This document shows positions 11,937 to 33,977 of a stretch of 33,977 bases of DNA, piece after piece. This stretch comes from Granulosicoccus sp. (GTDB lineage Bacteria; Pseudomonadota; Gammaproteobacteria; Granulosicoccales; Granulosicoccaceae), in assembly GCA_023300375.1 (NCBI GenBank), contig JALZWO010000226.1, positions 1 to 33,977 on the forward strand, read 5' to 3'. The notes under the pieces are model-generated. The model was not told where the DNA came from and made no database searches. It saw nothing but the letters and a program-made list of their open reading frames with translations. The first letter of the stretch is position 1; each line of letters starts with the position of its first letter. The position numbers and the translations under genes were made by a program.

Positions 11937-11980
11937 GCTCTCACTCGCGTAAAAGACCCATAGAACGTTGCTCCCCCGCC

Positions 11981-13948: not shown

Positions 13949-14159
13949 GGCATATCTTCTAAAGTGAGGTTCTGTTGCCAGTGTCGACAATCACCCGCCT
14001 CAGCTCAATGACAAGAACCACCAAATTAGGTATCAATTTTGTTCACACACTCAGTACAACTTTATATGATGTTTAATTTCAATGACTTAAAAAACAGCAA
14101 TTCATTAAAAAAAATACCAATATCGTCAATACCAAGCTGTTTTTACTGTTTTCTCACCA

Positions 14160-15212: not shown

Positions 15213-16561
15213 TGCTTAGTCCAGATTCGCCGATGAAACAAAGGGAACTTAAATAATTCTTCGAGTAAGAAAAGAGCAAACACCCAGCCCACGTGAAGGT
15301 TAAGCACCATAATACAAAACGCGGTTAGTGGCACCATAAATAACCAGTTAGCCATTAAATGAATATTCATAGATGTCTTGGTATCCCCTGCAGCACGAAG
15401 CACGTTGCCACAAATGGCATTGGATACCCGTGGAAACGGGATGACTAATAAAACGGGTAAAAAGCTGAGTAACGCTAGACGAGTTTGCTGGTCGAGATCA
15501 GAATAAACCCAATTCATAGAACCCACAATAAGAACATAGACCGTTGCCACTACAGCGGCTGCAACAAACGCTGCTCGCCACGCTCGACTTAAAAATTCGT
15601 CAAGGCTCTCACTAGATAATGATTTACCAATCATCTGCGCCAACAAGATACCAGTGGCTTGTGTCCAGGTATAACTCAATTGCCCAGCAACTCTTACCCA
15701 CGGCGTAATCAATACCATCGCAGCAAAGTGATAAACATTCATACTGGCATAAATGGCCGTACACACCTGATTTGCAAACGTCATACTAATAAAGGTTGCA
15801 GCGATAGGCCAAGAAAAACTGAATTGCCTATGTACCGTAGTTAGTAGCTTACCGTTTGCCCAGCCATCAACAGTGTGCAAGTCGCTGTGAACACAATAGA
15901 AGCGATATGCAAGGTACAACATTCGCAAAAATGCGCCAAGAAATGACCCCCAAGCTGCACCAACTAATCCCAGGTGAGGCATACCGTAAAGACCAAATAT
16001 CAATACAATACTGGTGAAAATATTAACCGGCGCTGATATCAAAAAACTATAAAACGCCAGTTTGGTTTTTCCACAACCATTAAAATGACTGGTGAGTGCT
16101 GAACTGAATGTTTCAGCAATAATAACTAATAAAAATACAGACAAATAGCTTGATGCGCCTTCAGCGATACTGGGTGAGTGCGCCAACTTAAGAATCGCGG
16201 CCTGACTAAACATCATGATTAACACAATACCAAGACTTGCGATAACAACGTTGAGCAGCAAGCCACAATAAAACGCGCTTTTAAGATCAACCACGTTATC
16301 ACCGCCGAAGGCCTGAGCTACCTTGATCTGCATGGCATTGGCAAAGGCAAATGTCGTCCCTAGTAGCAAGCCGGTAAAAATGGAGGCGATGCCGATGGCG
16401 GCCACTGCATTCTCACCTAAAGACGAGACAAGATAAAGATCGATAATGACTAGTGAGAACATCATGACTGCACGCAAAGCCATAGGCCATGCCATGCGGA
16501 ATATGTCGGCGTTAGTGGGCGTCTGTTGAATGTTCAGGCTAGTAATTCCAGAGTGTGCCAT
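15194..16561 (-). CDS. MATE-family efflux transporter
   Basis: A 455-residue integral membrane protein with about twelve hydrophobic segments, of the multidrug and toxin extrusion family (NorM/DinF-like). Family features: an N-terminal FRMAWPMALRAVMMFSLVIIDL helix, the LGLVGAAWGSFLGA loop and PFPRVSNAICGNVLRAAGDTKTSM in the second half. Members use Na+ or H+ gradients to export cations, drugs or metabolites. The ATG at 16561 overlaps the ManD gene by 23 bases and has AAGG seven bases upstream; the AraC gene overlaps its 3' end. Being inside a sugar-acid operon is unusual and hints at export of a toxic intermediate or alga-derived compound, but this is inference. Confidence 0.9.
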   Translation of the reverse strand: MAHSGITSLNIQQTPTNADIFRMAWPMALRAVMMFSLVIIDLYLVSSLGENAVAAIGIASIFTGLLLGTTFAFANAMQIKVAQAFGGDNVVDLKSAFYCGLLLNVVIASLGIVLIMMFSQAAILKLAHSPSIAEGASSYLSVFLLVIIAETFSSALTSHFNGCGKTKLAFYSFLISAPVNIFTSIVLIFGLYGMPHLGLVGAAWGSFLGAFLRMLYLAYRFYCVHSDLHTVDGWANGKLLTTVHRQFSFSWPIAATFISMTFANQVCTAIYASMNVYHFAAMVLITPWVRVAGQLSYTWTQATGILLAQMIGKSLSSESLDEFLSRAWRAAFVAAAVVATVYVLIVGSMNWVYSDLDQQTRLALLSFLPVLLVIPFPRVSNAICGNVLRAAGDTKTSMNIHLMANWLFMVPLTAFCIMVLNLHVGWVFALFLLEELFKFPLFHRRIWTKQWHTMK

Positions 16562-17765
16562 CGGTGAGCCTTGTCACTGGATGACTGCCAGGTTTGTACT
16601 GGTATCGTTTGGCCTCGGCCTCATCAAAATCAACACCCAAGCCCGGGGCATCTGACACATACATACGCCCCTTCTCCATTCGATGCATCGATGGAAACAA
16701 CGCATCACACGCGGGAGTTCCTAGCACCAAATATTCCTGAATACCAAAATTGGGCGCCCAGGCGTTTAGATGCGCCTGTGCAGCCATGCACAACGGTGAA
16801 TGACTGGGAGCTCCATGGAAGCCTGTGCGCACGTGATGCAGAGCTGCCAGATCAACAATACGTTTCACGTGTGTAATACCGCCGGCGTAAGTGACAGCCA
16901 CACGAATGAAATCGATGAGTTCCTCTTCTATCAGCTGTTTGCAGTCCCATACGGAGTTAAATACCTCTCCTATGGCAACAGGCACAGTGGAATGTTGTCT
17001 CAACAACCTCAAGGCTTGCTGATCATCTGCAGGTGTTGGGTCTTCCAACCAAAACAGACCGACTGACTCCACAGCCTTGGCAAACTCGGCAGCCTCACGA
17101 GGCAGTAGCCTATGATGCACGTCGTGCAAAATCTTCAGTTCTGGACCAAAACGATCACGCACTGCTGCCAATGCATCTGGCATGAATCGCATATAGCGCT
17201 CTGTGCCCCATACCTCTTGTTTTGGATGAATGCCGCTAAAGTCTGTAATAAATTGTTCATCAGATTGCTGACGGTTTGCGACACCGTAACTCTCGACAGG
17301 CATACCCGGCACACCACACTGAACACGCACCGCTTCATAGCCCTGCTCTTGATAAGAAACAACAGAGTCCATAAGCGCCTCTAGATCTGAACCTGTGGCG
17401 TGTGCATAGACCAAGGCGCTATCACGACTCTTACCTCCAAACAATTGGTACAACGGCATATTGGCAAGTTTGCCTTTGATATCCCATAACGCCATATCAA
17501 CTGCACCAAATGCTGCCATAGCAATGGGTCCACGGCGAAAGTATGCCCCTCGGTACATAAATTGCCACATATCCTCACTGTTGCGCGGATCCTTACCAAT
17601 GAGATTGGGAATAAGATAGTCGCTTAAATAAGCAGCTGGCAACGTCTCTCGATTATTGAGTGTGGCGTCGCCAAGGCCATAAATCCCTTGGTCCGTCATC
17701 ACTTTCAACGTGACGTAATTTTTACCAGGCCCTCCAACAAACACTTTAGCGTCAGTTATTTTCAT
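16539..17765 (-). CDS. manD: D-mannonate dehydratase, enolase superfamily (ManD/RspA type)
   Basis: A 408-residue enolase-superfamily protein that closely follows E. coli RspA and characterised ManDs. It dehydrates D-mannonate to 2-keto-3-deoxygluconate. Mg ligands are Asp215 (HDVHHRL), Glu241 (WLEDPTP) and Glu267 (IGEVFNS); Tyr160 and His217 match the catalytic Tyr/His pair of Novosphingobium ManD. Ala319 in FHGAPSHSP sits where high-efficiency ManDs have Ala and low-activity RspA-like ones have Pro, as far as I recall. The C terminus LTDGTLWNY is a family signature. The frame opens at 17822, but the ATG at 17765 starts the canonical MKITDAKVFV and has AGGT upstream. It follows the PL15 lyase gene by 98 bases. 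Confidence 0.9.
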   Translation of the reverse strand: MKITDAKVFVGGPGKNYVTLKVMTDQGIYGLGDATLNNRETLPAAYLSDYLIPNLIGKDPRNSEDMWQFMYRGAYFRRGPIAMAAFGAVDMALWDIKGKLANMPLYQLFGGKSRDSALVYAHATGSDLEALMDSVVSYQEQGYEAVRVQCGVPGMPVESYGVANRQQSDEQFITDFSGIHPKQEVWGTERYMRFMPDALAAVRDRFGPELKILHDVHHRLLPREAAEFAKAVESVGLFWLEDPTPADDQQALRLLRQHSTVPVAIGEVFNSVWDCKQLIEEELIDFIRVAVTYAGGITHVKRIVDLAALHHVRTGFHGAPSHSPLCMAAQAHLNAWAPNFGIQEYLVLGTPACDALFPSMHRMEKGRMYVSDAPGLGVDFDEAEAKRYQYKPGSHPVTRLTDGTLWNY

Positions 17766-17863
17766 TGAGTGTACCTGTGAAGATTCTATTGGATCTTGCT
17801 TGACATCATAAAACAGCTTCACACTAAGACATGACGATTTTCTGTAGTCACGCCTTCATCGGC

Positions 17864-20206
17864 TCAGGCACCAACATCAAACGTCTTAGGCACAACGACT
17901 TTAAAACTTCGATCTTGAGCATCCGTGAAATACAAATCACAATCGTAGCCTTGATCATCCAGAAAACTGAACACCCTCTGTGGCTTAGACATGGAGTACG
18001 GCACGAGTAAGGTGGCAATGCGCTGCCTCATAGCTTTCGGGTAGCGCGCTGTCAAACAGGTACTCACTGATAGCCCTTTGTAATCTTCTGGATCAACATC
18101 AGGAAAGCCCGTGTGCTGTGACAATTCTGCGGCACCCGCTTCAGACCACAATATCTGTCCATAGAAGCCTGCTTTTTCGCCGGTGTAACGAAAGCTGGTA
18201 GCACTAAGATCCATGGGCGCGTTAGCGTGTAGCAACCAATCTATGGACACAGGACATGTTGCATCTACAGAATCAACAATGACAAAGTACTGATTGTTGA
18301 CGAAATAAATATCTCTCAATACTTTGGTGACTTCAGGTGTTAGTGATTGATAGGCCGCTGTAGCATCACCTTGAATATAGATATGATCATCGTGTTGAAC
18401 AGCCTGTGTTATTTGTCCACAAGAACGCATCGCCTGAGCTTTATCCTTGCTAGCATACTGACCGTTACCATTAATAAGGATGGCGTTTTTTGAGCGCGTC
18501 TGCCTGCGCCAACTTTGATGCATCGTGCTATTAAAGGCAACATAGTGACCTGACTGTATGGCCAAATCCTCCCCATAAGCTGCTAGGCAGAAGGCATTTT
18601 GATCACCATGGCTATGGCTGACTGATCCATACTTTGATGCCTTCATAACGAATTGTATATGCTTGTCAGTGTCTTGCATATTTGTCTGTATCGCAACCCA
18701 GCCTACGCCTTTGAACCAACGAAGCATGTCGTTATCAGCTGGAGGTGCAGCCTTCACAATGGGGTAGTCTGACTGATACAACAACTCGTCGAAATTCAAA
18801 TCCCACCAACCGTAGTTATAGAAAGCCATCTCGGTGCCCGGATCGTTACGCTTTATCTCATCGTAGTACCACTGATAAGCACCGTTACCAGTCACACCTG
18901 CAAATTGACGCAAGTTGTAGCCTATTTTCAAGGACGGCAAATCACCCATGGTGCTGTCATCACCGAACGTGGCACGTCGCGTATCGGGTGCTTTAGTAAA
19001 TAACGGAAAATCACCCGTATGCTGAAAAAACGGACGTTGATACAGATCGATCTGCGTGTAGTTTTTCAACAAATTTACGGCATCAATCAAATAAGCCATA
19101 CCGGTCATCCAGTAATGCGGCCCCTCTGCCCATCCCCCTTCTTCATCTCCCCAAGGGGAATACACCGTTGCAAGAAATTCAATAGCATAGTTTAGCCAGC
19201 CTTCAGCCTCTGGCTCATCATCGAGCAATGCAATAGATGCTGGAATCAAGACAGCAGAGACAGCTCTTACCGCATGACTATCAAAAGGAAACAGGTGAAT
19301 ATTGGCATGCTTGATAATGTGATTAGCGGTTTCACGGGTTCGCACTAACAAGGCAATACGAACCGCGTCGCGCTCTTCTAGGGTGAGCTCGTCATATAGC
19401 CAGTCATAGCCCCAAGCTAAGGCACCATTAACTCTGAACGCCCATTCATCCGTATAACTACGTGATGTTGTACCACCGGGATTCCAAGAGGCCGCTTCCA
19501 GCAACCATTCTTTAGCTCGGGCAAGCAGGGCTGGATCGTCAGTGATAACACCAGCCACAGAAAGATGCCTGATAGCATAGATAAGCTCTTGCAGATCTAT
19601 GTAGGTCTGACGCCAGATGCTAGCGGTTCTCTTATGTTCTGGATAACCCGCAGGCTCTCTGAGAATGCCTCTGTCCATCCAGGGCAATACGGACTTGCTA
19701 TAAAACACATCCCAAGTGCAGTAATCTGGCTTGAGCGAGAGCTCTTGCTTGAATTGCGCAATGCCAGATTTGTTCATCCATAATCTTGGATGATCTTTAT
19801 TCGACGTGTTAAAGCGCTCAGCTCTAGAGGGCAGTGAGGTTTCAGGCAACTCAGCCGATACTGTAAAGTGACGATCACTGCTCCAGTTAGAGATGTGTGA
19901 TTGTTTAGCGTCAGACCATAGCGCGTATGACCAGACATAAGAGCCTGGGGACAACGGAGAATTCGGTGTGAAAAAATTTAAAGGTATTGATGTGAAGGTG
20001 TGGGTACTACTTTGTTCGTATTGCTTGTCTGGAGCCACACGAACCACGTAGCACGCATCATCTTCAATCGTTGGCAGCCACGTAAATCTAGGAGGATTTT
20101 CTACAATTTGCGTATCCGAATCTGGAGAATATTGAATCGTAAGCCGCCCACTTGCTGGCTCATCAAGCACTGCCAACTTAACATCAATATTTCCAGCGCT
20201 TTGCAT
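17864..20206 (-). CDS. PL15-family exolytic (oligo)alginate lyase
   Basis: A cytoplasmic lyase of the heparinase II/III fold that resembles Agrobacterium Atu3025 and Sphingomonas A1-IV along its whole length. These release monouronates (becoming DEH) from alginate oligomers. An N-terminal beta domain (ENPPRFTWLPTIEDDACYV) precedes an alpha/alpha barrel and a C-terminal beta sandwich. Counted from the ATG at 20206 (780 residues), the catalytic residues are His311 in FDSHAVRAV, Tyr365 in GPHYWMTG and His531 in SHSHGDQNAF, the Atu3025 numbers as I know them. The frame also opens with an ATG at 20239, but that codon touches a stem-loop; the ATG at 20206 has AAGAG upstream and fits the family N terminus. 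No signal peptide. Confidence 0.92.
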   Translation of the reverse strand: MQSAGNIDVKLAVLDEPASGRLTIQYSPDSDTQIVENPPRFTWLPTIEDDACYVVRVAPDKQYEQSSTHTFTSIPLNFFTPNSPLSPGSYVWSYALWSDAKQSHISNWSSDRHFTVSAELPETSLPSRAERFNTSNKDHPRLWMNKSGIAQFKQELSLKPDYCTWDVFYSKSVLPWMDRGILREPAGYPEHKRTASIWRQTYIDLQELIYAIRHLSVAGVITDDPALLARAKEWLLEAASWNPGGTTSRSYTDEWAFRVNGALAWGYDWLYDELTLEERDAVRIALLVRTRETANHIIKHANIHLFPFDSHAVRAVSAVLIPASIALLDDEPEAEGWLNYAIEFLATVYSPWGDEEGGWAEGPHYWMTGMAYLIDAVNLLKNYTQIDLYQRPFFQHTGDFPLFTKAPDTRRATFGDDSTMGDLPSLKIGYNLRQFAGVTGNGAYQWYYDEIKRNDPGTEMAFYNYGWWDLNFDELLYQSDYPIVKAAPPADNDMLRWFKGVGWVAIQTNMQDTDKHIQFVMKASKYGSVSHSHGDQNAFCLAAYGEDLAIQSGHYVAFNSTMHQSWRRQTRSKNAILINGNGQYASKDKAQAMRSCGQITQAVQHDDHIYIQGDATAAYQSLTPEVTKVLRDIYFVNNQYFVIVDSVDATCPVSIDWLLHANAPMDLSATSFRYTGEKAGFYGQILWSEAGAAELSQHTGFPDVDPEDYKGLSVSTCLTARYPKAMRQRIATLLVPYSMSKPQRVFSFLDDQGYDCDLYFTDAQDRSFKVVVPKTFDVGA

Positions 20207-20239
20207 ACTTTGACTCTTAAATAAGGTTAATTTCAGCAT

Positions 20240-20266
20240 AAGAGGTGCGTACCAAACGCACCTCTT
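20240..20266 (-). promoter_or_regulatory. intercistronic stem-loop between algQ-like and PL15 genes
   Basis: On the minus strand, AAGAGGTGCGT, loop TTGGT and ACGCACCTCTT make a perfect 11-bp stem, starting 29 bases after the binding-protein stop. No U-run follows it in the direction of transcription; the T-rich stretch lies before it. Such hairpins after binding-protein genes commonly protect the upstream mRNA or thin out downstream expression, as in malE-malF. It ends directly at the upstream candidate start codon of the lyase. Confidence 0.65.
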
Positions 20267-20295
20267 GCTTTTGCAAAAAAGAACGAACTAACTCA

Positions 20296-21858
20296 TTACT
20301 TATACTGACGTTTGTAAGCTGAGTTCATGACATCCAAAACGTCTTGAAAATTTTGCTTATTCAACTGGGCAATGTAGTCGTCCCAGTCTGCCTCGACGTC
20401 ACCCGTACCCAGTATCCAGGTTTGCTGTCGTTCGAGCATATAATCGCGTATGCCTGGCCAGAATTTGTCATACACTTTTTGCTCATCGGCTGTGAACGCG
20501 ACACCCAGAAACTGGTCTATCAAGTAGTCACCTTCGTCATACAGCGCAATACCCTCAAGCGCAAATTCGTTTGACCACTGAGTCTCGTAGTTATAGTCCT
20601 GAAAATAACCGCGTGCCTGGAGCTGTGAGCCCACTGCATACAACTGGTTGTTGACTGGCTCATCACTGTTAAGCACCGAGTCTTTAAACACCGCTTTGCC
20701 ATCGACCATATCGTAATGCTGACCCTCAACTCCGAAATTAGCTAAGCGACGACCTGCCTCGGTAAACCAAAAATCAAAGTATTTAATGGTTTCAACTGGA
20801 TGCTTGTTCGTCCCACCAATCGCCCAACCATCAGGCTTGATAGGTATACGCCGATGCTCTTCTATCCGCTTGCCTGATATAGAGGCAGGTGGCGCAAAAG
20901 CTTTAAACGCAAAGCCGTCTATATCGGCAGAGAGTCGGTTGTAACCCGCCGTAGACGCAAACCAATCGTGCGTGACTCCTCCCAGATTTTCTGACAAAAG
21001 AAATTCTCGCGACGAACTACCCCGTGTAAAAATCTCAGCATCTACAAGACCTTCTTCATACCAACGTGCAACATTCTTTATGCCATCTCTGTAGCCTTCG
21101 CCCGCGTACGGATGTTTAATTTCACCGTCTTCCACCAAGAAGTCGTGATAGGTGTCAGAACCTGATGAGCGACCATCCCACAAAGTAACAAGACGAAGTA
21201 GCTCTGGCCATTGGCGTGCAAAATAAGGCACCTCATCGGCTTCACCGTTACCATTGGGATCTTGCGTTTTAAACGCACGCAGCACCGCCTCGAATTCATC
21301 AACAGTTTCTGGAACCTCAAGTTTCAATGCGTCGAGCCAGTCATAGCGTATGAAGTATGCACGTCCATACTTGCCATCCGGTAAATAAGGAATGTAATAC
21401 ATATTGCCGTCAGCAGCAGATAGAGCCGCCTTTATCTCTGGTTTTTCTTCGAAGAATTTCTTAAGATTGGGTGCGTGCTCGTTAATAAGATCGTTCAAGG
21501 GCAAGAAGGCCCCTTCCGGTCCGTACTGATTCACAAAATCTTTAATACGACTGGAACCAACAATATCCGGAATTTTTCCCGTGGCAAGCATCAAATTTAA
21601 TGCTTCTGTTTTACCTGTGTTCTCACTGTCTGTACGAATGTTCGCACCAACTGTGACATCCTTGAGGTGTATATTTGTCAACGCTCTAGCTTCTTGCTCC
21701 ACGGGCCAGTCTTCTTCATAAACTGGATAACGTTTATGATTCATCTGAATACTGAGCTCTAGCGGCTCATCCACAATCTTGTATTCGTCTTGCGCATTCG
21801 CCGCAGTGCCAAAAACGGCACCCGCTACTATGGCAGTTGTTAATAGTGTTTTATTCAT
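20296..21858 (-). CDS. algQ: alginate-oligosaccharide-binding protein, AlgQ-like
   Basis: A 520-residue periplasmic binding protein resembling AlgQ1/AlgQ2 of Sphingomonas sp. A1 throughout. A Sec signal peptide (MNKTLLTTAIVAGAVFGTA, cut after ANA at about residue 22) has no lipobox cysteine, so the protein is soluble. Shared blocks include PDGNIYY-like AADGNMYYIPYLPDG, YFIRYDWLDALKL, the EF-hand-like Ca site DPNGNGEADEVP (200-211), GGVTHDWFAST and the C-terminal YDKFWPGIRDYMLE. It should deliver alginate oligomers to the M1-M2-S importer. Ribosome site AGGAG lies upstream of the ATG. It is followed by the stem-loop, then the lyase. Confidence 0.92.
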   Translation of the reverse strand: MNKTLLTTAIVAGAVFGTAANAQDEYKIVDEPLELSIQMNHKRYPVYEEDWPVEQEARALTNIHLKDVTVGANIRTDSENTGKTEALNLMLATGKIPDIVGSSRIKDFVNQYGPEGAFLPLNDLINEHAPNLKKFFEEKPEIKAALSAADGNMYYIPYLPDGKYGRAYFIRYDWLDALKLEVPETVDEFEAVLRAFKTQDPNGNGEADEVPYFARQWPELLRLVTLWDGRSSGSDTYHDFLVEDGEIKHPYAGEGYRDGIKNVARWYEEGLVDAEIFTRGSSSREFLLSENLGGVTHDWFASTAGYNRLSADIDGFAFKAFAPPASISGKRIEEHRRIPIKPDGWAIGGTNKHPVETIKYFDFWFTEAGRRLANFGVEGQHYDMVDGKAVFKDSVLNSDEPVNNQLYAVGSQLQARGYFQDYNYETQWSNEFALEGIALYDEGDYLIDQFLGVAFTADEQKVYDKFWPGIRDYMLERQQTWILGTGDVEADWDDYIAQLNKQNFQDVLDVMNSAYKRQYK

Positions 21859-21903
21859 AGACTACTATCTCCTCTCCTTCGTGGTGGTTGTCCTTACTCT
21901 TCG

Positions 21904-22788
21904 CTATTCCTTGACACCGCCAAGGAGTATTCCTTTTTCAAAATACTTCTGCACAAATGGATAGACAATAAGTACAGGAATAATTGAACAAACTATGATT
22001 GCAGCTGTTACCGACTCAACACTGTACAGCTGTGATGACAAGGTAGCTGTGAATTCTTGATCGTCTGATAAAAACGCGATTGTGTGTCTTAGGAATACCT
22101 GAAGAGGTATTTTTTCCTCACTCTGCAACAGTACCATTGCCCAGAAAAATCCGTTCCATCGAGCGACTATACAAAACAGGGTGATAGTGGCAATAGCAGG
22201 TTTCGACAGAGGCATATACACTTTCCATAGCACTTGAAAATCATTGGCACCGTCCATGCGCGCTGCCTCCTCGAAGCTCTGAGGAAGCGACTCAAAGAAA
22301 TTTCTCAACAGAATGAGATTGAATGCATTTACTGCGAATCCAACGATAATTCCAATGTAACTATCAAGCAGCCCCAAGTCACGCATATTGATAAAAAACG
22401 GAATCAGCCCTGCATTGAACCATAAGGTAAAGGCGACAAAGAGATTCCAGAAACGCCGGCCAATTAATTGTGGACGCGATAACGCATAGGCTCCTGGAAT
22501 GATAATCAGCAAGCTCATTATCGTGCCACCAATCGTATATACAAACGTATTTAAATACGAGAGCCAGAACTTAGGCTGTGTAAGAACATACTTATAAGCC
22601 GCTAACGTTGAGTCTACCGGTGTAAAAACCACCTTACCCGCAGCAGCGGCGAGACCCCCGCTAAATGAAACCGCCGCTATGTATATAAATGGGTATAGCG
22701 TTGCCACCGTAAACATTCCAATGAGAATGGAGGTAGCTATAGCAAATACCTTATCGCCCTTTGAATACAGATTCATGTTTAATATCAT
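21904..22788 (-). CDS. algM2: ABC transporter permease, AlgM2-like
   Basis: A 294-residue carbohydrate-type permease (CUT1, MalG-like) with six predicted helices. The EAA loop is SFEEAARMDGANDFQVLWKV followed by PLSKPAIATITLF. It ends in KGILLGGVKE, the typical end of AlgM2/LplC/YtcP proteins. Size equals A1 AlgM2 (293). It starts 7 bases after the M1 stop, with TAGGCGG as ribosome site, and partners M1 as the channel for alginate oligomers delivered by the AlgQ-like protein. Confidence 0.9.
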   Translation of the reverse strand: MILNMNLYSKGDKVFAIATSILIGMFTVATLYPFIYIAAVSFSGGLAAAAGKVVFTPVDSTLAAYKYVLTQPKFWLSYLNTFVYTIGGTIMSLLIIIPGAYALSRPQLIGRRFWNLFVAFTLWFNAGLIPFFINMRDLGLLDSYIGIIVGFAVNAFNLILLRNFFESLPQSFEEAARMDGANDFQVLWKVYMPLSKPAIATITLFCIVARWNGFFWAMVLLQSEEKIPLQVFLRHTIAFLSDDQEFTATLSSQLYSVESVTAAIIVCSIIPVLIVYPFVQKYFEKGILLGGVKE

Positions 22789-22795
22789 GAGCCGC

Positions 22796-23773
22796 CTACC
22801 AGAGCGATGTGCGCGAGTATCGTCGCGATAAGGTATTGGCGGTCATCACCAACACGAACGCGACAACCGCATTAAACAAGCCAGCAGCTGCGGCAACATC
22901 ATACTGGCCGCTTTCCAAGCCCTGGCGATATACGAATGTATTGACCACATCGGCGGTGGACCATGTTGCAGGCTGATACAGCAGAATAATCAACTCGAAT
23001 GATACCTCCATAATATTGCCTATGCGAATAATCAGCATGATGATGATGGTGGGCATGATTGAAGGTATTGTGATTCTCCACATCATTTGCCAACGGCTGG
23101 CACCATCAACAACAGCACTTTCATAGAGCGATGGATTAACACCCGCAATAGCTGCGAGAAACACGATAGATCCAAAGCCAGCCTCTTGCCAAATACCTGT
23201 ACTCACAAATATAGGTCTGAACCATTCGGGCTTAGTGAGAAAGTAGATAGAGTCCAGCCCAAACCACCCTATCATTGTATTGACAACACCTGCTGTCGGT
23301 GAAAAGGCGGTAGTAACAATACCCGCTATAATAACAGTGGAAATAAAATGAGGCAGATAGACGATAGTTTGTGCAGTGCGTTTATAGGTAGCATGCAATA
23401 TTTCATTGAACATCAGGGCAAGAATTATGGGCGCTGGAAATCCGAACAATAAATTCAGGGCACTGATAATAATCGTGTTCTTTATTGCTCTGAGAAATTG
23501 ATCATTACTAAAGAGTGTTTGGAAATGTTCAAATCCAACCCAAGGACTGGCAGCAACTCCACGAAATATCGAATAATCTTTAAATGCTATTTGTAACCCG
23601 TACATGGGTTTGTATAAAAATACGATCATCCATATGATAGTAGGCAAGAGCATTAGGTAGATCTGCCAGTCATTGCGAAAATGATCAACAAACCTACTCA
23701 GCTTTTGCTTCAATGGCTTAGCTTGACGAGCGGCTGCCATCGCTTTATCCGCTTTTACGCTAGAGGAGCTCAC
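22796..23773 (-). CDS. algM1: ABC transporter permease, AlgM1-like
   Basis: A 325-residue permease of the MalF/LplB type. After a basic N terminus, the first helix is [19 protein letters not shown], followed by [18 protein letters not shown], a hallmark of LplB/AlgM1 proteins. The EAA loop is [19 protein letters not shown] with [12 protein letters not shown] after it. A1 AlgM1 has 324 residues. The start is GTG at 23773, which overlaps the stop of the ATPase gene (GTGA), so translation is coupled. Confidence 0.9.
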
Positions 23774-24875: not shown

Positions 24876-25679
24876 CTATGTTTGTTGAGTACGAGTGGAC
24901 CAAGAGGAACGCCTTGAAGGCAGCTTCCTGGTCATAGAGGAGTCTTGATTTTCTATAAATGCAAGTAAACCCGGATTCTGCGCCAAACGCTCAATCTCAG
25001 ACTCCAAAGAGCCGATGTGTGCCACTAGAGCCTCTTCAGAGGCTTGCACATCACCCGCCTTGATAGCGCTTACAATTGCATTATGTGCCTCAAGAACTTG
25101 AAGCCCTCGACGAATGCCATTGATGCGTTTTAGATGTCTAACCCGGTTTACGTCTGCCTGCGTCTTTTGATGAAAATGCCATACGCCGTCAAGACCTGCA
25201 GCTGTAAAAAATGCTTCGTGTAATTGTTCATCAAGTGTGGCGAAGCGAACGTAGTCTTCTGCATTCCAGGCAATAGCTTGCTGCTCAAGAATGCTGTCGA
25301 GCTGCTGATGACAAGATTCAATGCCACGCCGACTCGCTGCGCGTCGAACAGCGCCAATCTCTAACTGCAACCTGATGAAACAACCTTCAATGTATGAATC
25401 GATACGGATCGGGGTAACGTAGGTTCCACTTTTTGGTACAACAGCTACCAGGCCCACATCCTCAAGTCGGATCAGCGCCTCTCGTACAGGTGTTTTGCTT
25501 GAATTTAAAACAGAGGCAATTTCCTTCTCGGATACCAACTGCCCAGGTTGTATTTCCATGGCCACAATGGCGTCCCAGAGTACGCGATAAATTTGCGATA
25601 CCAAGGAACGACCCGGGTCTAGCGAGACGCCAGTTAAGACACTGGTGAGAGATGAGAATTGGGGGGTCGCAGAATTCAA
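24876..25679 (-). CDS. GntR-family regulator, FCD (FadR) subfamily
   Basis: A 267-residue regulator with an N-terminal winged helix-turn-helix (about 28-95: [49 protein letters not shown]) and an all-helical FCD ligand domain (about 100-230) carrying the metal-type pattern [20 protein letters not shown] and [12 protein letters not shown] regulators usually sense sugar acids or carboxylates and repress their own operons. It is the first gene of the alginate operon. The only upstream start in frame is a TTG at 25679 with no good ribosome site, so the N terminus is uncertain; the wing-helix domain needs most of the given length. Confidence 0.88.
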
Positions 25680-26148: not shown

Positions 26149-28461
26149 CTAGAAATCTTCCCAGAATTCACCATTGCCTGCGGATTTTGGAGTTTGGATT
26201 TGATGAGCAGCATCGTTGCTCGCCTGACTCTCTGTATGACTTTGCTGCTTTGAGGGCACAATGGTTGGCGACAATATGCGAGGAGCAGAAGGTGCAACTA
26301 CTGGCGCTATAGTTTTTGCTGAATCTTTGTTCGCTGAAAAGAACTCTATCTGGGATGTTAACAAGGTCGCTTGATCCCTCATTAAGCGACTTGTTGAGGC
26401 AGCTCCCTCAACCATGGTTGCATTTTGCTGGGTAACACTATCCATATGCACCAATGCCTGATTAATTTGCTCGATTCCCGCTGCCTGCTCATCGCTGGCA
26501 ACGCTAATCTGCCCCACAATGTCAGTTAGTTTGGATACACTTTCCACAATGTGCTCGAGCTCACCTCCTGATTCTTGCACCAAACGTGTGCCGTCCTTCA
26601 CCTTATGAACACTGTCTTGGATAAGCTCCTTGATCTCTTTTGCTGCCGAAGCACTTCTGCCAGCCAATTGCCTGACCTCAGTCGCCACAACTGCAAATCC
26701 TCGACCTTGTTCTCCAGCACGTGCCGCCTCAACAGCTGCGTTAAGAGCTAGCAAGTTTGTCTGGAAAGCTATCTCATCGATCACACTGATGATGTCCGCG
26801 ATACGCTCACTCGCTGTCGTGATTTCTTGCATAGCCGTTACTGCCCTTCCGGCTACGGCCCCAGTAGCGGATGCTCGCTCTCTCGTTTGCATAGCTAATA
26901 CATTCGCATTTCGAGTGTTCTCAGCATTATGCTTTACCGTGCTCGTGATCTCTTCTGTACTGGATGCAGTTTCTTCCAGGTTAGCCGCCTGCTGCTCTGT
27001 ACGCTCACTCAACCCGACGTTCGCATCGGATAACTCATTCGCACCATTCCTGACCTGCACCGCAACTTGTATTGACTCCTCAAGAATAGTCCGCAGTTTG
27101 TTACGCATCTTCACCAGCGAAGCATAAGCACCCTTGGCTGTATCATCACCTTCACGATCAGTCAGATCACCACCACCGATAGCTTCTGCCGCGGCTTGAA
27201 GCTCACTCGGGTCTCCGCCGATTAGACGATGTAAATGAGAGCCGACCATAAACGAGAGTAACGCAACTAACATAGCTGACCCTGCTGTTATATAGGCACT
27301 TTTCATTAACAGATTATCAACTGCAACAAGTGCCTCGTCAGACTGAATTTGGCCTGTTATAGCCCAGTCAATTCCAAGAACATCAATGGGTGCAAAAACA
27401 CTTAAATAGGAAATATCATCAAACATCTCGACCATCGCGCCAGACTCTCCGTCATGTGCACGTTCAACAGCTTCTGATGAAACTTTTTTTCTTAGAATTG
27501 TATTTTCATCATTGAACCGTGATTGAGAACGCATCAAGTGGTCATCACCTACGAGAATTATTTCACCAGTCTCTCCCAATCCTTCATGGATTTGCATAAT
27601 GTCATTTATTCCTTCCACTGGCATTTGAAATGCTAGAACTCCAATCACCTCATCGTCCGAGTAAATGGGACTTGCAACAAATGAGGCGGGACTACCATAG
27701 GACGGCAGGTAGTCACTGAAGTCTACAATGGCACTACGACCTTGAGGTAAAGATAGTGCCTCCCTGGCAACCCGTGCCAGGCCACTATCTCGATGTGCTC
27801 CATTAAACAGGCTACCAGCAAAGTCAATTTCCTTGAACACCGAGTAAACTATCGTGCCATTGACAGGCTCGATTAAAAACACATCATAAAAGCCAAACTC
27901 TTCCAGAAGTAGATTAAATATCGGATGATATTTCTGATGTGCAACATCATATGCCGTTGAATTATCTACAGCGGTAAGTAGGTTTTTACTTCCTAAAGCG
28001 CTGTCGTTATTAGTGATATAAATAGACTGCGCAATTTTTCCAGCACGCGTCTTCGGAATTAATGCCTCAGGATTTCCATTTATTATTTCCTTGTCATCTA
28101 ACTGACTGGAGAAATCATTTCTATAAAACCGACGTAAGCCGGCATCCATTGATTCCTGCTCTTTTATAGTAGGGACCGTATCGTTAGGTAATTTAAAAAA
28201 TGAATCGTTGAATGCACTCATCGCATCAACCGTCATCAAATTAGTTGAATACGTTTCGTTCTGACTAATAACTGTCTTAAGATATTTTTCAACGAAAGCT
28301 TTTCTACCGTTGATCTCGGCTGTCAGTAAGGTATAGGTTTTTTTCTGGAGCGATGAACTCGCATCATTCGTTATGATAGAACTCACCACGATCATCGGCA
28401 CGATACCAGAGACGATCATAGAGATTACGATTAACGTTCTCATGCTTATTCTAGATAGCAT
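26149..28461 (-). CDS. methyl-accepting chemotaxis protein with Cache-type sensor and CheR tether
   Basis: A 770-residue transmembrane receptor. Helix 1 spans about 8-30 and helix 2 about 388-409; between them is a 350-residue periplasmic double-Cache-like domain ([21 protein letters not shown], 191-211, and the second lobe around [18 protein letters not shown]). A HAMP-like linker (about 410-465) leads into the signalling domain, with the conserved tip [20 protein letters not shown] (562-581) and [15 protein letters not shown]. The protein ends in FWEDF, matching the xWxxF pentapeptide that tethers CheR and CheB. It is divergent from the che operon, so it is likely a main receptor of that pathway. 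The ligand is unknown. Confidence 0.94.
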
Positions 28462-28776: not shown

Positions 28777-30822
28777 ATGGAGGACGACGAACTCGAGGAA
28801 CTTAAGCAAATGTTTCTGGAAGAGTGTCTAGAAAACTTTGAGCTTCTCGAGAATGGCCTGATGCGCATGGGCGATGGAGAGTGCAGTTCAGACACTCTCA
28901 ACGAAGTCTTCCGCGCGGCACACTCCATTAAAGGAGGAGCAGCAGGATTCGGCTTTAATCCCATGTCTGAGCTAACGCATCACATGGAAACATTGCTGGA
29001 CGAAATGCGTTCAGGTAAAAGATCTGTGGAAGAGGTGGATGTAGATCTACTTCTAGAGGCTCTGGACATACTTCAGGAAATATTGCAGGTTTGCCAGGCG
29101 GAAGGTACGGGCGACCATGAAAACAGGCTTGCTCTGCAAACAAAGCTAGAGCAAGCTGTGTCGAGCTCTGAGGAAACGCCTGAAAGCACGACTGCAGTCA
29201 GCAGCACCTCTGAGGAACAAACACCGTCGGTTTCATCCACCAATCACTGGCAAATCAAATTTGCACCGAATCCCAATTTTCTCCAGCGTGGTAATAACCC
29301 GCTGTCATTGCTGCGAGAGCTAGCGCGACTCGGCACTTTAGAGCTCACCCTCAATAATGATTGCATTCCTGAATGGTCTGTATTTGATCCAAATATAAGC
29401 TACCTATCTTGGAACGCACAGCTCGTCAGTTCAGAATCAGAAGAGACGATACGTGCCATTTTTGATTGGGTAGAAGATGACTGCGTGCTGGAAATAACTT
29501 TAGAAACTAGTAGTCCTACTGCCCCCACACAAGTGGATGTTATTCCGAGCATTGAATCAGAGAAAGAGACTACATCTAAAGAAGTTACCCCAAAAAAGGC
29601 TGAAGAAAAATCTGATCCTCCAGCCAAGGCAAAAAAGAGTTCCGCTGGGGCAGAAGGCGCATCTATACGAATAGCCACCGATAAAATTGACCAGCTAATC
29701 AATATGGTTGGCGAGCTGGTCATTACACAATCAATGCTAAGCCGTGTTGGCGATCAGGCTGGGCCTATTGATGTACAAGAACTCAGAGAGCGACTAGCTG
29801 ATCTTGAACACCATACGCGCGACCTACAAGAGAGCGTCATGCAGGTGCGCATGCTGCCTATTTCATCCGCCTTTAGTCGTCTGCCAAGACTGGTTAGAGA
29901 TTTGTCTAAAAAGCTAGATAAAAATATAGATTTAGTCTTAACGGGTGGAACGACAGAGTTAGACAAAACAGTACTTGAGCGAATGGTAGATCCATTAGTG
30001 CACCTTGTCAGGAACTCATTGGATCACGGATTGGAAAACACCGCTGAGCGAGCAGAAGTAGGTAAGTCCAGCAGAGGACAGTTAGAGCTCAGTGCACGCC
30101 AGGAAAGTGGCAACGTAATCATAGAAATCAGTGACGATGGCCGTGGAATAAACGGTCAGGTCATATTAAAAAAAGCTCGAGAGCGCGGCATCGTTCAGCC
30201 TGACGAAGAGCTAAACGACGATCAAATCAATCAGCTTATATTCGCTCCCGGCTTCTCCACTGCAGAGACAGTAAGCGATGTCTCAGGACGGGGTGTTGGA
30301 ATGGACGTTGTAAGACGTAACATCGTGGACCTTGGAGGGCAGGTAAACGTGCATTCACAGCTTGGAACAGGGACAACTGTGAAGATCAAACTTCCATTAT
30401 CACTAGCCATTCTAGATGGCCAGCTTGTACGAATTGCTGATCAAATATTTGTCATTCCCATCCTGAGTATCATCGAATCAATGGAAGTGGGTCAAACAGA
30501 TTTGAGTGTACTGCCAGGTGGTGATGAGGTATGTCTGTTTCGCGGTTCCTATTTGCCTACTATTAATGTGGCCCGGCAATTCCAACTTAGTAATTCATCA
30601 GATCCGAGAATGGTAGTTATTGTTGAAACACATCTCCAACGGATCGGGCTATTGGTAGACGATATTCTAGGACAACAGCAGGTTGTCATTAAACCATTGG
30701 AAAAAAATTATAAGGCAGTTAATGGACTAGCTGGTGCGACAATTATGAGTGATGGAGCAGTCGCACTAATACTAGATCCTAATGGATTTGGTCAGATTAA
30801 TTCAGTTACCGAAGCAGCCTGA
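28777..30822 (+). CDS. cheA: chemotaxis sensor histidine kinase CheA
   Basis: A 681-residue CheA. The N-terminal Hpt domain has the phospho-accepting His49 in RAAHSIKGGAAGFGF. Residues 157-243 (HWQIKFAPNPNFLQRGNNP and following) form a compact domain in place of a recognisable CheY-binding P2, flanked by acidic/Ser/Lys-rich linkers. Then come the dimerisation helices (296-360, IDQLINMVGELVITQS), the ATPase with N box HLVRNSLDHGLE (409-420), G1 ISDDGRGI and G2 GRGVGMDVV, and a C-terminal CheW-like domain (about 545-675). It transfers phosphate from ATP to its response-regulator partners at the receptor array. It is the first gene of the operon, 14 bases before cheW. Confidence 0.95.
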   Translation: MEDDELEELKQMFLEECLENFELLENGLMRMGDGECSSDTLNEVFRAAHSIKGGAAGFGFNPMSELTHHMETLLDEMRSGKRSVEEVDVDLLLEALDILQEILQVCQAEGTGDHENRLALQTKLEQAVSSSEETPESTTAVSSTSEEQTPSVSSTNHWQIKFAPNPNFLQRGNNPLSLLRELARLGTLELTLNNDCIPEWSVFDPNISYLSWNAQLVSSESEETIRAIFDWVEDDCVLEITLETSSPTAPTQVDVIPSIESEKETTSKEVTPKKAEEKSDPPAKAKKSSAGAEGASIRIATDKIDQLINMVGELVITQSMLSRVGDQAGPIDVQELRERLADLEHHTRDLQESVMQVRMLPISSAFSRLPRLVRDLSKKLDKNIDLVLTGGTTELDKTVLERMVDPLVHLVRNSLDHGLENTAERAEVGKSSRGQLELSARQESGNVIIEISDDGRGINGQVILKKARERGIVQPDEELNDDQINQLIFAPGFSTAETVSDVSGRGVGMDVVRRNIVDLGGQVNVHSQLGTGTTVKIKLPLSLAILDGQLVRIADQIFVIPILSIIESMEVGQTDLSVLPGGDEVCLFRGSYLPTINVARQFQLSNSSDPRMVVIVETHLQRIGLLVDDILGQQQVVIKPLEKNYKAVNGLAGATIMSDGAVALILDPNGFGQINSVTEAA

Positions 30823-30836
30823 ACGAGATATTTAGA

Positions 30837-31346
30837 ATGACAACAAAATCGAACACAGCTGTATCAAATGAGATTGCAGAAACTGCAGATCAGTATCTTA
30901 CGTTCCTTTTAGGAGACGGAGAATACGGTGTAAAAATCCTGCAAGTGCAAGAGATAAAAAGTTGGGGACCTTATACCCCCCTGCCTAACTCTCCAGACTA
31001 TTTACTAGGAGTTATCAACTTGAGGGGCTCAATAGTCCCGATCATTGATTTAAGAATACGTTTTAGCCTTGAAAAAGTGGAATATACGTCCACTACCGCC
31101 ATCATCATTGTGCATGTTGAAATAGATTCACATACACGAATAGTGGGCCTGGTGGTTGACCTCGTCTCCGATGTACATCACTTAGCTCAAGATGCCATTC
31201 AATCAGAGGAGGAAATCACTGGAGGACCTAACGGAGGCTACATAAAAGGACTGGGACAAATCGGTGACAAGATGGTGATTCTAGTTAATTTAGAGCCCGT
31301 AGTGGCATCAAGTTTGGCCTCCTTACCTGAAGTCCCAAGCGCATGA
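30837..31346 (+). CDS. cheW: chemotaxis coupling protein CheW
   Basis: A 169-residue single-domain CheW that links CheA to receptors. Features: QYLTFLLGDGEYGVKILQVQEI near the start, PLPNSPDYLLGVINLRGSIVPIIDLR in the middle and GLVVDLVSDVHHL later, all standard blocks. The end (QIGDKMVILVNLEPVVA) is typical. Its TGA overlaps the ATG of the small STAS gene (ATGA), so the two are translated together. Confidence 0.95.
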   Translation: MTTKSNTAVSNEIAETADQYLTFLLGDGEYGVKILQVQEIKSWGPYTPLPNSPDYLLGVINLRGSIVPIIDLRIRFSLEKVEYTSTTAIIIVHVEIDSHTRIVGLVVDLVSDVHHLAQDAIQSEEEITGGPNGGYIKGLGQIGDKMVILVNLEPVVASSLASLPEVPSA

Positions 31347-31615
31347 ACATTGTAGAACTACCCCCAGAATTCACGTCAAATAGCCTAGATGATATTCACA
31401 GAAAAATAAGTGAATTCGTCAGCGCAAAAAATGAATACCGCTTTGATGGAAGTCAGGTCAAGAGTGTCGATGCAGCTGCCATTCAGCTTTTGGCCGTGTG
31501 CAAAAAATCAGAACCCGATTGCATGGAACCCAGCGTGTTTAAACCAAGCGAGGTACTTTCCAGCACTTTGGAATTTCTAGACGTCTTTAAGTCCTCATCA
31601 GTCCACGCTACCTAA
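31343..31615 (+). CDS. small STAS-domain protein of the chemotaxis operon
   Basis: A 90-residue protein with the STAS fold pattern: an N-terminal strand (MNIVELPPEF), a helix, a strand RFDGSQVKSVDAAAIQLLAVC and a C-terminal helix FLDVFKSS. In anti-sigma antagonists the motif is Asp-Ser-x-Gly with a phosphorylatable Ser; here it reads Asp43-Ala44-Ala45-Ala46, so phospho-control of that type is unlikely. It overlaps cheW by four bases and cheR by one (TAATG), so it is made in step with both and presumably belongs to the array. Function is not known; a scaffold or adaptor role is inference. Confidence 0.8.
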   Translation: MNIVELPPEFTSNSLDDIHRKISEFVSAKNEYRFDGSQVKSVDAAAIQLLAVCKKSEPDCMEPSVFKPSEVLSSTLEFLDVFKSSSVHAT

Positions 31616-32448
31616 TGTCAAAACCCGCAACCAACGATCAATCATTCAAGCTAACTGACAAAGTATTCAATGAATTTCAAAAGGTAACGCTTACTCATAC
31701 AGGTATTCACCTGGATGATACTAAGCGAGCAATGATCACTAGTCGCTTTTCACGTCGTCTACGCGAACTAGGGATGGGAGGTTTTGAAGAATATCTTAGC
31801 TGCATTCGTGACACCACTCATCCTGAGTACGCAGAATTTGTAGACACAATAACCACTAATCTGACCTACTTTTTCAGAGAGCCTCATCACTTTGATAAGT
31901 TACGAGAAGACATCCTGCCTGGCTTGCAGGGCATAAGCTCTACCGCAGATCCAATTAGGATATGGTCTGCTGGGTGTAGCTCAGGACAAGAACCCTACTC
32001 CATTGCGATAACAGCTCTACAAGAGTCATGTGCCGGACATAGAAAGGTAAAAATACTGTGTACTGATATCGACTCTAAAGTGATTCGACAAACAGAACAA
32101 GGTATTTATCGCTCAACGGAGCTGCGCGGATTAACAGATCACGATAAGAATTTATGGTTTAGCAAACAAGCTGACGGCGGCGTAAGGGCCAATGAAAGTT
32201 TAAGAGAATTAATATTCTGTCGGTACTTAAATTTGTTCGATCCTTGGCCAATAAAGTCTCATTTGGATGTTATTTTTTGTAGGAACGTACTTATTTATTT
32301 CGACATTGGTCGGCAAGAAAAATTAATACGAGGCATGGCTAAACTGCAAAAGTCTAAATCTATTTTGATAATAGGGCATTCTGAAACTATCGCTAACTGT
32401 AGCGATGTTTATCGAAGAACTAGTAACACGATGTACGAAAGAATTTAG
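31615..32448 (+). CDS. cheR: chemoreceptor glutamate methyltransferase CheR
   Basis: A 277-residue methyltransferase that uses S-adenosylmethionine to methylate receptor glutamates. An N-terminal helical domain (to about 80) contains ITTNLTYFFREPHHFDKL; the catalytic domain has the SAM motif IWSAGCSSGQEPYSIAI, the acidic CTDIDSKVI and FCRNVLIYFD, then the closing IIGHSETI. The divergent receptor carries the pentapeptide that such enzymes bind. Its ATG overlaps the STAS stop by one base. Confidence 0.95.
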   Translation: MSKPATNDQSFKLTDKVFNEFQKVTLTHTGIHLDDTKRAMITSRFSRRLRELGMGGFEEYLSCIRDTTHPEYAEFVDTITTNLTYFFREPHHFDKLREDILPGLQGISSTADPIRIWSAGCSSGQEPYSIAITALQESCAGHRKVKILCTDIDSKVIRQTEQGIYRSTELRGLTDHDKNLWFSKQADGGVRANESLRELIFCRYLNLFDPWPIKSHLDVIFCRNVLIYFDIGRQEKLIRGMAKLQKSKSILIIGHSETIANCSDVYRRTSNTMYERI

Positions 32449-32527
32449 CTTTGTGTAAATAGGCAACTATTTGAACCGTTGTTGGTTATCCAAGAGTTGG
32501 TCGATAGCATAATAAGGAATATATGTA

Positions 32528-33601
32528 ATGTCAGTTCAAAGAGTACTGATCGTTGACGATTCAAAAGCGTTCTGTTTGTTTCTGTCAAAAATTATTTCTG
32601 CAGATCCAAATTTGGATGTTATTGGGTATGCCTTAGATCCTTTTGAGGCGCGTGACAAAATCAAAGATCTTAATCCAGACGTTCTGACTCTAGACGTTGA
32701 GATGCCGCGAATGGATGGTCTTACGTTTCTGCGTAACTTAATGCGACTGCGCCCCATGCCCGTGGTTATGGTTTCTTCACTCACAGAACCCGGTGCTGCC
32801 ATCACTCTGGACGCTCTGGAAGTCGGTGCCATAGATTTTATGGTAAAGCGCCATACCTCAGATTCTCAAAGCATGGAAGAGTACTCTGCCGAGGTCGTTC
32901 GAAGAATCAAGAACGCAGCAGCAGCCAATATTCGTAAGAAAAATGTACAAACCACCGACGTTGCCATACCGGACGTACCAATTCTAAACCAGCGTATTCG
33001 GGCAGACAAACGTGTTTCCCCCGAATTGAAGAGACTAGTAGCGATGGGCGCATCCACGGGAGGCCCGGAGGCTTTGCGAAAAGTGCTAACTGATTTTTAC
33101 GATCCTGGTTGTGCTGTAGTGTTATGTCAGCATATGCCAGAGAGGTTCATGGCGGCATTCTCTCATCGGCTAAACTCAAGTTCACGATTTTCGATCAACT
33201 TAGCTGTTGATGGTGAAAAAATAGAACCTGGACATTGCTATGTAGCCCCAGGGGATAAACACTTAGAAGTGGTGAACAAGTCAGGATCCTTACATTGCAA
33301 GATCACATCAGATCCAGCCGTCAGCGGACACAGGCCATCTGTGAATACTTTGTTCAACAGCGTGGCGAAAGAAGTCAAACGAGGTGTTATTGGTGTTCTA
33401 TTAACTGGCATGGGAGACGACGGCGCAACAGGACTCAAATTGATACACGATGCCAATTACCCCACCATCATCCAAGACGAAAAGACTAGTGCGGTATGGG
33501 GAATGCCTGGACGCGCGCATGAGCTAGGCGGCGCGGACCAAGCGATGGGTCTTGAGTGTATCGGCCCTGTTTTAAACGCAATTAATAAAAAAGCTAAGTA
33601 G
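32528..33601 (+). CDS. cheB: chemotaxis response regulator and protein-glutamate methylesterase CheB
   Basis: A 357-residue CheB: receiver domain 1 to about 125 with phospho-acceptor Asp56 (LTLDVEMPRMDG), acidic pair Asp10-Asp11 and Lys107; linker; methylesterase domain with the triad Ser176 (GASTGGPEA), His202 (CQHMPERF) and Asp298 (TGMGDDGATG). It removes methyl groups from (and deamidates) receptor glutamates when phosphorylated by CheA. It is the last gene, 79 bases after cheR, with AAGGA ahead of the ATG. It is the only receiver domain encoded in the window. Confidence 0.96.
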   Translation: MSVQRVLIVDDSKAFCLFLSKIISADPNLDVIGYALDPFEARDKIKDLNPDVLTLDVEMPRMDGLTFLRNLMRLRPMPVVMVSSLTEPGAAITLDALEVGAIDFMVKRHTSDSQSMEEYSAEVVRRIKNAAAANIRKKNVQTTDVAIPDVPILNQRIRADKRVSPELKRLVAMGASTGGPEALRKVLTDFYDPGCAVVLCQHMPERFMAAFSHRLNSSSRFSINLAVDGEKIEPGHCYVAPGDKHLEVVNKSGSLHCKITSDPAVSGHRPSVNTLFNSVAKEVKRGVIGVLLTGMGDDGATGLKLIHDANYPTIIQDEKTSAVWGMPGRAHELGGADQAMGLECIGPVLNAINKKAK

Positions 33602-33930: not shown

Positions 33931-33977
33931 TGGTGCCGGCACCAAGAGTCGAACTCGGGACCTACTGATTACAAATC
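33931..33977 (-). tRNA. tRNA-Thr(TGT), 3' part only
   Basis: Reverse-complemented, the last 47 bases read as the 3' half of a tRNA: the anticodon arm (loop TTTGTAA with TGT anticodon, followed by the closing ATCAG strand), the variable loop AGGTC, a T arm with GTTCGACTC, the 3' acceptor strand TGCCGGC and encoded ACCA. The anticodon and surrounding bases match bacterial tRNA-Thr(TGT). The 5' half lies outside the window. Confidence 0.9.

Follow-up and report, generated by a model that had tools for sequence, protein, structure and literature searches.

A draft genome of Granulosicoccus sp. (NCBI assembly GCA_023300375.1; 4.58 Mb, 247 contigs, 97.5% complete) carries a chemotaxis operon, cheA-cheW-STAS-cheR-cheB, that includes no cheY. 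The operon lies on contig JALZWO010000226.1 (C226), whose entire 33,977 nucleotides are hereafter called the window. Comparing 27 genomes of the genus, some of them incomplete, we conclude that the operon is quite probably the block for sensing, kinase activity and adaptation in an F7-like flagellar chemosensory system, and that the output pair of this system, a cheY and a partner gene, is encoded elsewhere in the genome.

This arrangement suggests that, within one genus, a chemosensory system can have its sensing/adaptation half and its output half in separate places and with different trees; in some relatives the cheY pair is still inside the operon. The pairing of CheA with CheY is therefore testable in genomes that hold one of each. 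The system also points to an unnamed family of CheY partners and to a flagellar switch that lacks the usual CheY-binding peptide. We found no account of a split between block and cheY in the open-licence literature searched on STAS proteins in chemotaxis, CheS, chemosensory clusters, che-linked anti-sigma antagonists, Granulosicoccus chemotaxis, CrsA and the FliM motif.

An operon with a single receiver domain

The initial annotation of the window, made from sequence alone, placed cheA-cheW-STAS-cheR-cheB at 28777-33601, all on the plus strand. Coordinates and Pfam domains agree with that order (lengths in amino acids, aa):

26149..28461, minus strand: mcp, divergent chemoreceptor (770 aa); Pfam MCPsignal, 171.6 bits
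28777..30822, plus strand: cheA, chemotaxis histidine kinase (681 aa); Pfam Hpt, H-kinase_dim, HATPase_c and CheW
29224..29532, plus strand: P2-like region of CheA, residues 150-252; candidate CheY/CheB docking domain, from a structure model
30837..31346, plus strand: cheW, coupling protein; Pfam CheW, 118.7 bits
31343..31615, plus strand: STAS single-domain protein (90 aa); STAS_2, 27.7 bits
31615..32448, plus strand: cheR, receptor methyltransferase; Pfam CheR, 198.3 bits, and CheR_N, 46.4 bits
32528..33601, plus strand: cheB, methylesterase; Pfam CheB_methylest, 186.9 bits, and Response_reg, 66.1 bits

The annotation had also described the operon as lacking cheY, cheZ and cheD and as having one receiver domain only, that of CheB. 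None of the three genes is among the operon's open reading frames (ORFs), with cheD searched for in the operon and not genome-wide, and no ORF of at least 60 aa lies between cheB and the contig end. Pfam and a genome-wide receiver scan both identify the CheB domain at 32543-32857 as the sole receiver of the operon.

The Hpt motif of CheA reads RAAHSIKGG, and its H49 is invariant in 9/9 aligned CheAs, the window's included. Between the Hpt and dimerisation domains, residues 150-252 are modelled by AlphaFold 2 (predicted local distance difference test score, pLDDT, 86.8) as a ferredoxin-like beta-alpha-beta-beta-alpha-beta fold. Its best Foldseek matches are PII-like and ribosomal S6 folds; the P2 domain of Thermotoga maritima CheA (1u0s_A) ranks 20th, with Z 7.5 and a root-mean-square deviation of 3.4 over 78 residues. 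The model is consistent with a candidate CheY/CheB docking domain, without being decisive. The divergent Mcp ends in ..EFWEDF, and 8/8 orthologues (window included) share the tail form xW[ED][DE]F, similar to the NWETF tail of E. coli Tar. C-terminal receptor tails of this kind can dock CheR.

An unlinked CheY and its partner

As one of two alternatives, the initial annotation proposed that an unlinked CheY serves the system, and it recommended scanning the genome for orphan cheY genes and other che clusters. The scan found both: an unlinked cheY on contig C36 and a second che cluster on contig C59, in a genome with 55 receiver domains and two CheAs. A profile of the operon-linked cheY family has a single strong match in the window genome (C36:30490-30846, 214.5 bits), and the next-best receiver, the C59 CheY, reaches 85.1 bits. 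The C36 cheY is followed by a partner gene (149 aa; L007:4865-5314), and the pair stands between fabA-fabB and srkA-aroQ-accB-accC, neighbours that were labelled by reading of the sequence. The partner is the same one that accompanies cheY in the related genomes G018, G005 and G026. With the orthologous cheY lying inside the operon in 3/8 relatives, the comparison gives the unlinked-CheY alternative good support. We also looked between mcp and cheA for a remnant of the pair; tblastn with CheY and partner against the window and four relatives gave chance scores only (best E 0.34).

CheZ was not found in the window genome at E <= 0.001, nor in any of 15 genomes searched, and the E. coli positive control matched. 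Two residues of the partner, E94 and N97 (ExxN), are invariant in 19/19 aligned sequences (alignment A5). ExxN is the catalytic motif of CheC/CheX/FliY phosphatases, and the motif makes the partner a candidate phosphatase of phosphorylated CheY (CheY-P). None of the 19 family members matches the CheX or CheC family in Pfam at E <= 1, and a PDB profile search gave no credible solved relative (best E 0.89). In place of CheZ, the system has a protein family for which no Pfam or PDB relative was found. The motif had first suggested that the partner is a CheX; Pfam, the PDB profile search and an hhalign comparison with the Pfam-confirmed CheX of C59 gave this identity no support.

The block and the pair in related genomes

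A CheA of the window type occurs in 8/27 genus genomes (G000, the window genome, and G001, G005, G006, G008, G016, G018 and G026), and the position of the cheY pair divides them. In three of the eight operons (G018, G005, G026), cheY and partner lie between mcp and cheA; in G000, G001, G006, G008 and G016 they lie outside the operon, at the fabB-srkA site. G026 joins the two arrangements, since its whole operon, from mcp to cheB, sits at fabB-srkA. Six genomes that hold only a second type of CheA (G007, G012, G014, G019, G023, G024) also show the order fabB-cheY-partner-srkA. Among 11 further genomes, fabB is directly beside srkA with nothing recognised between them in nine (G005, G018, G002, G003, G009, G013, G015, G021, G030), and fabB was not seen beside srkA in G029 and G039. 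Genes in related loci were named by phmmer similarity to labelled reference proteins, with starts taken from a simple ORF caller.

In family relatives outside the genus (G039, G030, G045), the same cheY and partner adjoin cheR and are divergent from cheA. A member of another family, G056, has the order cheY1-cheA-cheW-STAS-(unknown)-cheR-cheD-cheB-cheY2-partner, its cheD identified by reading of the sequence. We further surveyed named CheA loci, the best 80 of at least 586 confirmed relatives (Pseudoalteromonas, Shewanella, Methylobacter, Vibrio, Lysobacter and others). Within these 80, cheY is directly upstream of cheA in 71 and present anywhere in 76, and a STAS-like gene is present in 61. 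Restricting the set to loci of at least 15 kb, cheY is found in 59/59 and a STAS-like gene in 51/59, with none detected in the other eight. Of the nine loci without a directly upstream cheY, L052 runs off the end of its contig, L059 and L080 owe their place in this group to start codons mis-set in ORF calling, L056, L079 and L100 carry cheY elsewhere in the locus, and no cheY was detected in L102, L112 and L113.

The counts in relatives and named loci indicate that STAS is a regular part of this class and that the missing cheY of the window operon is most simply a derived state. The initial annotation had named beforehand a cheY just outside related operons as a sign against its picture; such a cheY, inside or just outside the operon, is present in G018, G005 and G026 and in the named loci. 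Separately, the loci of Thiotrichales/Thiomicrorhabdus type in which no cheY was detected (L102, L112, L113) are another possible case of an unlinked CheY.

A derived, F7-like system

In a CheA tree, 16 of the 19 sequences fall on one side of a branch with support 100/99: the window CheA and those of Pseudoalteromonas, Shewanella, Vibrio, Methylobacter, Lysobacter, E. coli and others. One F6-type and two C59-type CheAs lie on the other side. The tree is unrooted, its F6 and E. coli rows are long, and the F6 label is taken from gene order. By this grouping with CheAs of F7-type clusters, the window CheA carries the phylogenetic mark of the F7 class. The F7 gene order STAS-cheY-cheA-cheW-receptor-cheR-cheD-cheB is not that of the window, where a divergent mcp faces cheA-cheW-STAS-cheR-cheB; because of this difference we call the system F7-like and derived, not a plain F7 member.

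The available passages on gammaproteobacterial F7 systems (Ortega et al. 2020, PMC7184735) describe stage-1 clusters that include an anti-sigma-factor antagonist gene, and they report stage-3 cases with cheY outside the F7 cluster. The window system is alike in its CheA grouping, in its STAS gene and in its external cheY. It differs in several respects: cheY and cheD are absent from the operon; STAS lies between cheW and cheR and not before cheY; the CheY is paired with the partner protein in place of CheZ; and in the window genome, block and output site have separate histories. The CheY itself also departs from the pattern. C36-type CheYs form a third clade, neither F7 front CheY nor F6/E. 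coli-like (99/98). CheY-tree forks supported at less than 80 were not used.

Separate histories of block and output site

We compared a block tree, built from joined Mcp, CheA, CheW, CheR and CheB proteins, with a site tree built from FabB, SrkA and AccB. The two disagree on the nearest relatives of the window genome, in tests for which the clades were chosen after trees and identities had been seen. The block tree unites G000, G008 and G001 (100/100) and rejects G000+G008+G026 (approximately unbiased test, p 2e-44). The site tree unites G000, G008 and G026 (99/98) and rejects G000+G008+G001 (p 4e-5). The tree of cheY and its partner sides with the site tree (85/93). The flanks of the block place G000 and G008 together in one location and G006 and G016 in another; no shared flank was found for G001.

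By these trees, the operon block and the fabB-srkA site of the window genome do not share one history, and the block probably differs in history from the cheY-partner pair as well. Read most simply, the trees mean that the block moved to a new place, that one line received it from a different member of the genus, and that it works with the resident cheY pair. A swap of paralogues would give the same trees as such within-genus transfer.

The contig of the window ends, at 33931-33977, inside a tRNA-Thr-like sequence of which only the tail is present (by reading; ARAGORN finds no tRNA in the window), and G008 has a tRNA-Thr(tgt) about 1.2 kb after cheB (L022:11107-11182). A tRNA beside a relocated block could be an integration site; no integrase was recognised.

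The STAS protein is constant in place and variable in sequence

The window protein scores 27.7 bits (E 3e-6) against STAS_2 (PF13466), below the curated cut-off of 29.2. The assignment is secured by its relatives: 40/40 che-linked STAS homologues, the window's included, match PF13466 at E <= 0.001, and their profile matches MlaB and anti-sigma-factor antagonists of known structure. One further match, in G062 (L030), was read as antisense to a gatB-like gene; it is a row of alignment A1 but enters neither alignment A6 nor any count. Relatives of the same family that lie outside the genus carry a longer STAS protein in the che cluster (397, 211, 452 and 401 aa in L147, L148, L150 and L151); in G039 (L147:13471-14664), Pfam places the STAS domain at residues 307-375.

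The initial annotation made two claims about this protein. It had been called translationally tied to both neighbors, and its gene shares 4 bases with cheW and 1 base with cheR. It had also been credited, correctly, with Ala at the usual phospho-serine position, where the window motif reads VDAAAIQ. The corresponding column over the 40 che-linked homologues holds T in 26, G in 6, A in 4 and S in 4, a mixture indicating that a phosphate site is not required at that position in every member. Within the genus, 4/8 members have Ala or Gly there: the window has Ala, whereas G008, G005 and G026 have Gly.

One rival account makes this protein a passenger, or a chaperone-like small protein with no signalling role. 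STAS is the fastest-evolving protein of the operon: it is 64% identical to its counterpart in G008 and 24-33% to those of six other relatives, compared with 59-69% for CheA in the same six. The eight longer named loci without a detected STAS-like gene point the same way. The start of G008 CheB was mis-set in the identity and dN/dS (nonsynonymous to synonymous substitution rate) comparison, which touches the CheB row only. Against a passenger role, the gene stands between cheW and cheR in 8/8 genus operons with window-type CheA, and in every one its first 1 or 4 bases are shared with cheW (the distance to cheR varies). Its dN/dS is 0.115 relative to G008, on a high dS of 1.69, close to the 0.092 of CheA. 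A STAS-like gene is also present in 51 of the 59 longer named loci, and CheS, described below, is a precedent. The gene keeps its position and the protein is under purifying selection; we regard a passenger as unlikely. The initial annotation had held that a dispensable, poorly conserved STAS would speak against its proposal; the sequence is indeed the fastest-evolving, but the gene is in every operon and under purifying selection.

Two known proteins suggest what the STAS protein might do. In Sinorhizobium meliloti and Agrobacterium fabrum, a che operon encodes CheS, a protein with a STAS domain only that is reported to bind CheA and modify how CheA interacts with CheYs (PMC12654446). By that description the window protein is alike, being also small, STAS-only and encoded in a che operon; the CheS operon is alphaproteobacterial and has two cheYs, cheD and CheT, whereas the window operon has no linked cheY. 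The second is CrsA, a STAS anti-sigma-factor antagonist of the che1 locus of Shewanella oneidensis, which according to the accessible parts of PMC9855816 and PMC6482189 takes part with CrsR in RpoS control. It resembles the window protein in being a che-linked STAS protein. In the HsbA-HsbR switch described in the same parts, a regulator with phosphatase and kinase domains leads to phosphorylation of the antagonist at Ser56, whereas the window protein has Ala at the switch position and so lacks the phosphorylatable Ser/Thr of a CrsA/HsbA antagonist. No gene for an anti-sigma kinase or serine phosphatase is in the operon, the search having covered the operon and not the whole genome. We favor a CheS-like over a CrsA-like role because of the Ala/Gly at the switch site in 4/8 members and the lack of a linked kinase or phosphatase. 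An adaptor of CheA is our best guess. STAS does not come up in the available passages of PMC11253619.

Matching with flagella

CheA (PF02895), the C36-type CheY family and FliM (PF02154) occupy the same 14 of the 27 genus genomes and are jointly absent from the other 13, several of which are incomplete assemblies. Of the 16 genomes with completeness of 90% or more and contamination of no more than 5%, 11 have a CheA. Four FliM-bearing genomes (G005, G006, G016, G018) have the window type as their only CheA. The match is simplest in G006 and G016, each with one CheA in a cheY-less operon and one unlinked CheY of the C36 family, the next receiver scoring at most 57 bits. In G005 a further CheY of the family, on C101, matches less strongly (156.7 bits). 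Published passages on kelp-associated Granulosicoccus (PMC9238374) report flagella and chemotaxis genes in 8/8 metagenome-assembled genomes and two reference genomes, compared with 13/27 genus genomes without a FliM match here; those passages are silent on operon structure, on STAS and on the split.

The FliM of the genus is atypical. In 13 copies, drawn from 12 genomes (in the window genome L036:8298-9191, on C27; otherwise L218-L229), the first conserved stretch is YDFxxPxH[KR][LIM], and the Pfam score of the window genome's FliM is low, 62.3 bits. FliM ordinarily has an N-terminal CheY-binding motif, EIDALL-like in sequence. We judged the motif by eye in the open frame before the conserved part, together with a regular expression on the contig of the window genome, leaving out G007 and G019. 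As control we used the FliM of G056, which carries SQDEMETLL; the frame found in G061 is not its FliM and was not used.

Several observations weigh against the reading of the operon as the block of a flagellar system completed by the C36 pair. No EIDALL-like motif was seen in the 13 genus FliM copies, and without it the contact with the motor must be unusual or absent. The six genomes with second-type CheA and no window-type CheA also hold C36-type CheY, so this CheY family is not exclusive to the window-type operon. In the window genome itself, the C36 CheY could also work with the C59 CheA, and the window CheA with the C59 CheY. Outside the genus, G029 has a C36-type CheY and a related CheA with no FlhA or FliM match, and G038 has FlhA and no C36-type CheY. 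Four of the 80 named loci show no cheY: L052, L102 and L112, which are short or cut, and L113 (Thiomicrorhabdus, 14 kb). The match of the P2-like region to 1u0s_A does not stand above generic ferredoxin-like folds, and the model of the partner (pLDDT 46, built on a two-sequence alignment) has a fold of little use. For the separate histories, the p-values are not of a clean kind given how the clades were chosen, the site tree represents three genes of the fabB-srkA site and not the whole genome, and on the pair tree by itself the rejection of the block topology is not firm (p 0.052).

The second alternative of the initial annotation was that the output is not flagellar and that the STAS protein acts as adaptor or output partner. 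Its adaptor part survives as the best guess given above; its non-flagellar part finds no support. In its fullest form, this account has the STAS protein in a CrsA/HsbA-type partner switch acting on a sigma factor or another effector, with no need for CheY. The role of CrsA in RpoS control lends it some plausibility, as do the pattern in G029 and the FliM that lacks the usual motif, and the function of related F7 stage 1-2 clusters is described as unclear (PMC7184735). Against it are the operon's lack of an anti-sigma kinase or serine phosphatase, the Ala or Gly in place of a phosphorylatable residue, the retention of cheY in the operon by relatives and the four FliM-bearing genomes whose only CheA is of the window type. 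We set a non-flagellar output aside because CheA, C36-type CheY and FliM occupy the same 14 genomes, and consider it very unlikely.

The second che cluster

The C59 cluster of the window genome encodes a response regulator, CheB1, a CheA with two Hpt-like stretches, CheW, a methyl-accepting chemotaxis protein, CheY, CheB2, CheR and CheX. Its CheB1 (L003:9462-10568) groups with the window-type CheBs: the joint group has support 100/99, compared with 88/87 for the eight window-type CheBs alone. Judged by this grouping, the two systems may share adaptation parts.

Cross-talk in which the window CheA signals through the C59 CheY, with the C36 CheY as the regulator of the C59 CheA, could draw on the presence of both CheYs in the window genome, on the six genomes that combine C36-type CheY with the second CheA only and on the CheB1 grouping, but it is highly improbable given that G006 and G016 have a window-type CheA but lack both a second CheA and, at E <= 1e-12, any C59-type CheY, and that the window-type operons of G018, G005 and G026 themselves encode a C36-type CheY.

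A proposed signalling path

In the reading we prefer, a flagellar system divided between the operon and the C36 pair, the divergent Mcp and CheW would control CheA as one signalling unit. CheA would phosphorylate both the linked CheB and the unlinked CheY encoded at C36:30490-30852, and C36 CheY-P would act on the flagellar switch. CheR and CheB would adapt Mcp, with CheR probably docking on the xWxxF tail, and the partner protein would be the candidate phosphatase that acts on CheY-P. The STAS protein, itself unphosphorylated, would most likely bind CheA or CheW and tune phosphotransfer, as reported for S. meliloti CheS.

A bolder proposal, which we offer tentatively and think rather unlikely, is a modular system. 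Here the mcp/cheA/cheW/STAS/cheR/cheB block would pass from lineage to lineage as one unit, without a regulator, and join a resident cheY pair; that pair would be a new CheY/phosphatase set, its ExxN protein standing in for CheZ, and would signal through another motor contact to a FliM that has lost the N-terminal peptide.

Other features of the window and genome

Beyond mcp, the window at 8399-23773 encodes an ABC transporter, heparinase II/III-like and mandelate-racemase-like proteins, a MATE protein, an AraC regulator and enzymes of fatty-acid beta-oxidation, a cluster possibly for the use of uronate or alginate. These transporter and enzyme genes, and a GntR regulator gene at 24876-25679, were checked and are unrelated to the chemotaxis operon. 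Elsewhere in the genome, contig C208 (L232) carries genes resembling non-flagellar type III secretion, with SctV-, SctC-, SctD-, SctJ- and SctU-like products identified by reading and a match to PF00771.

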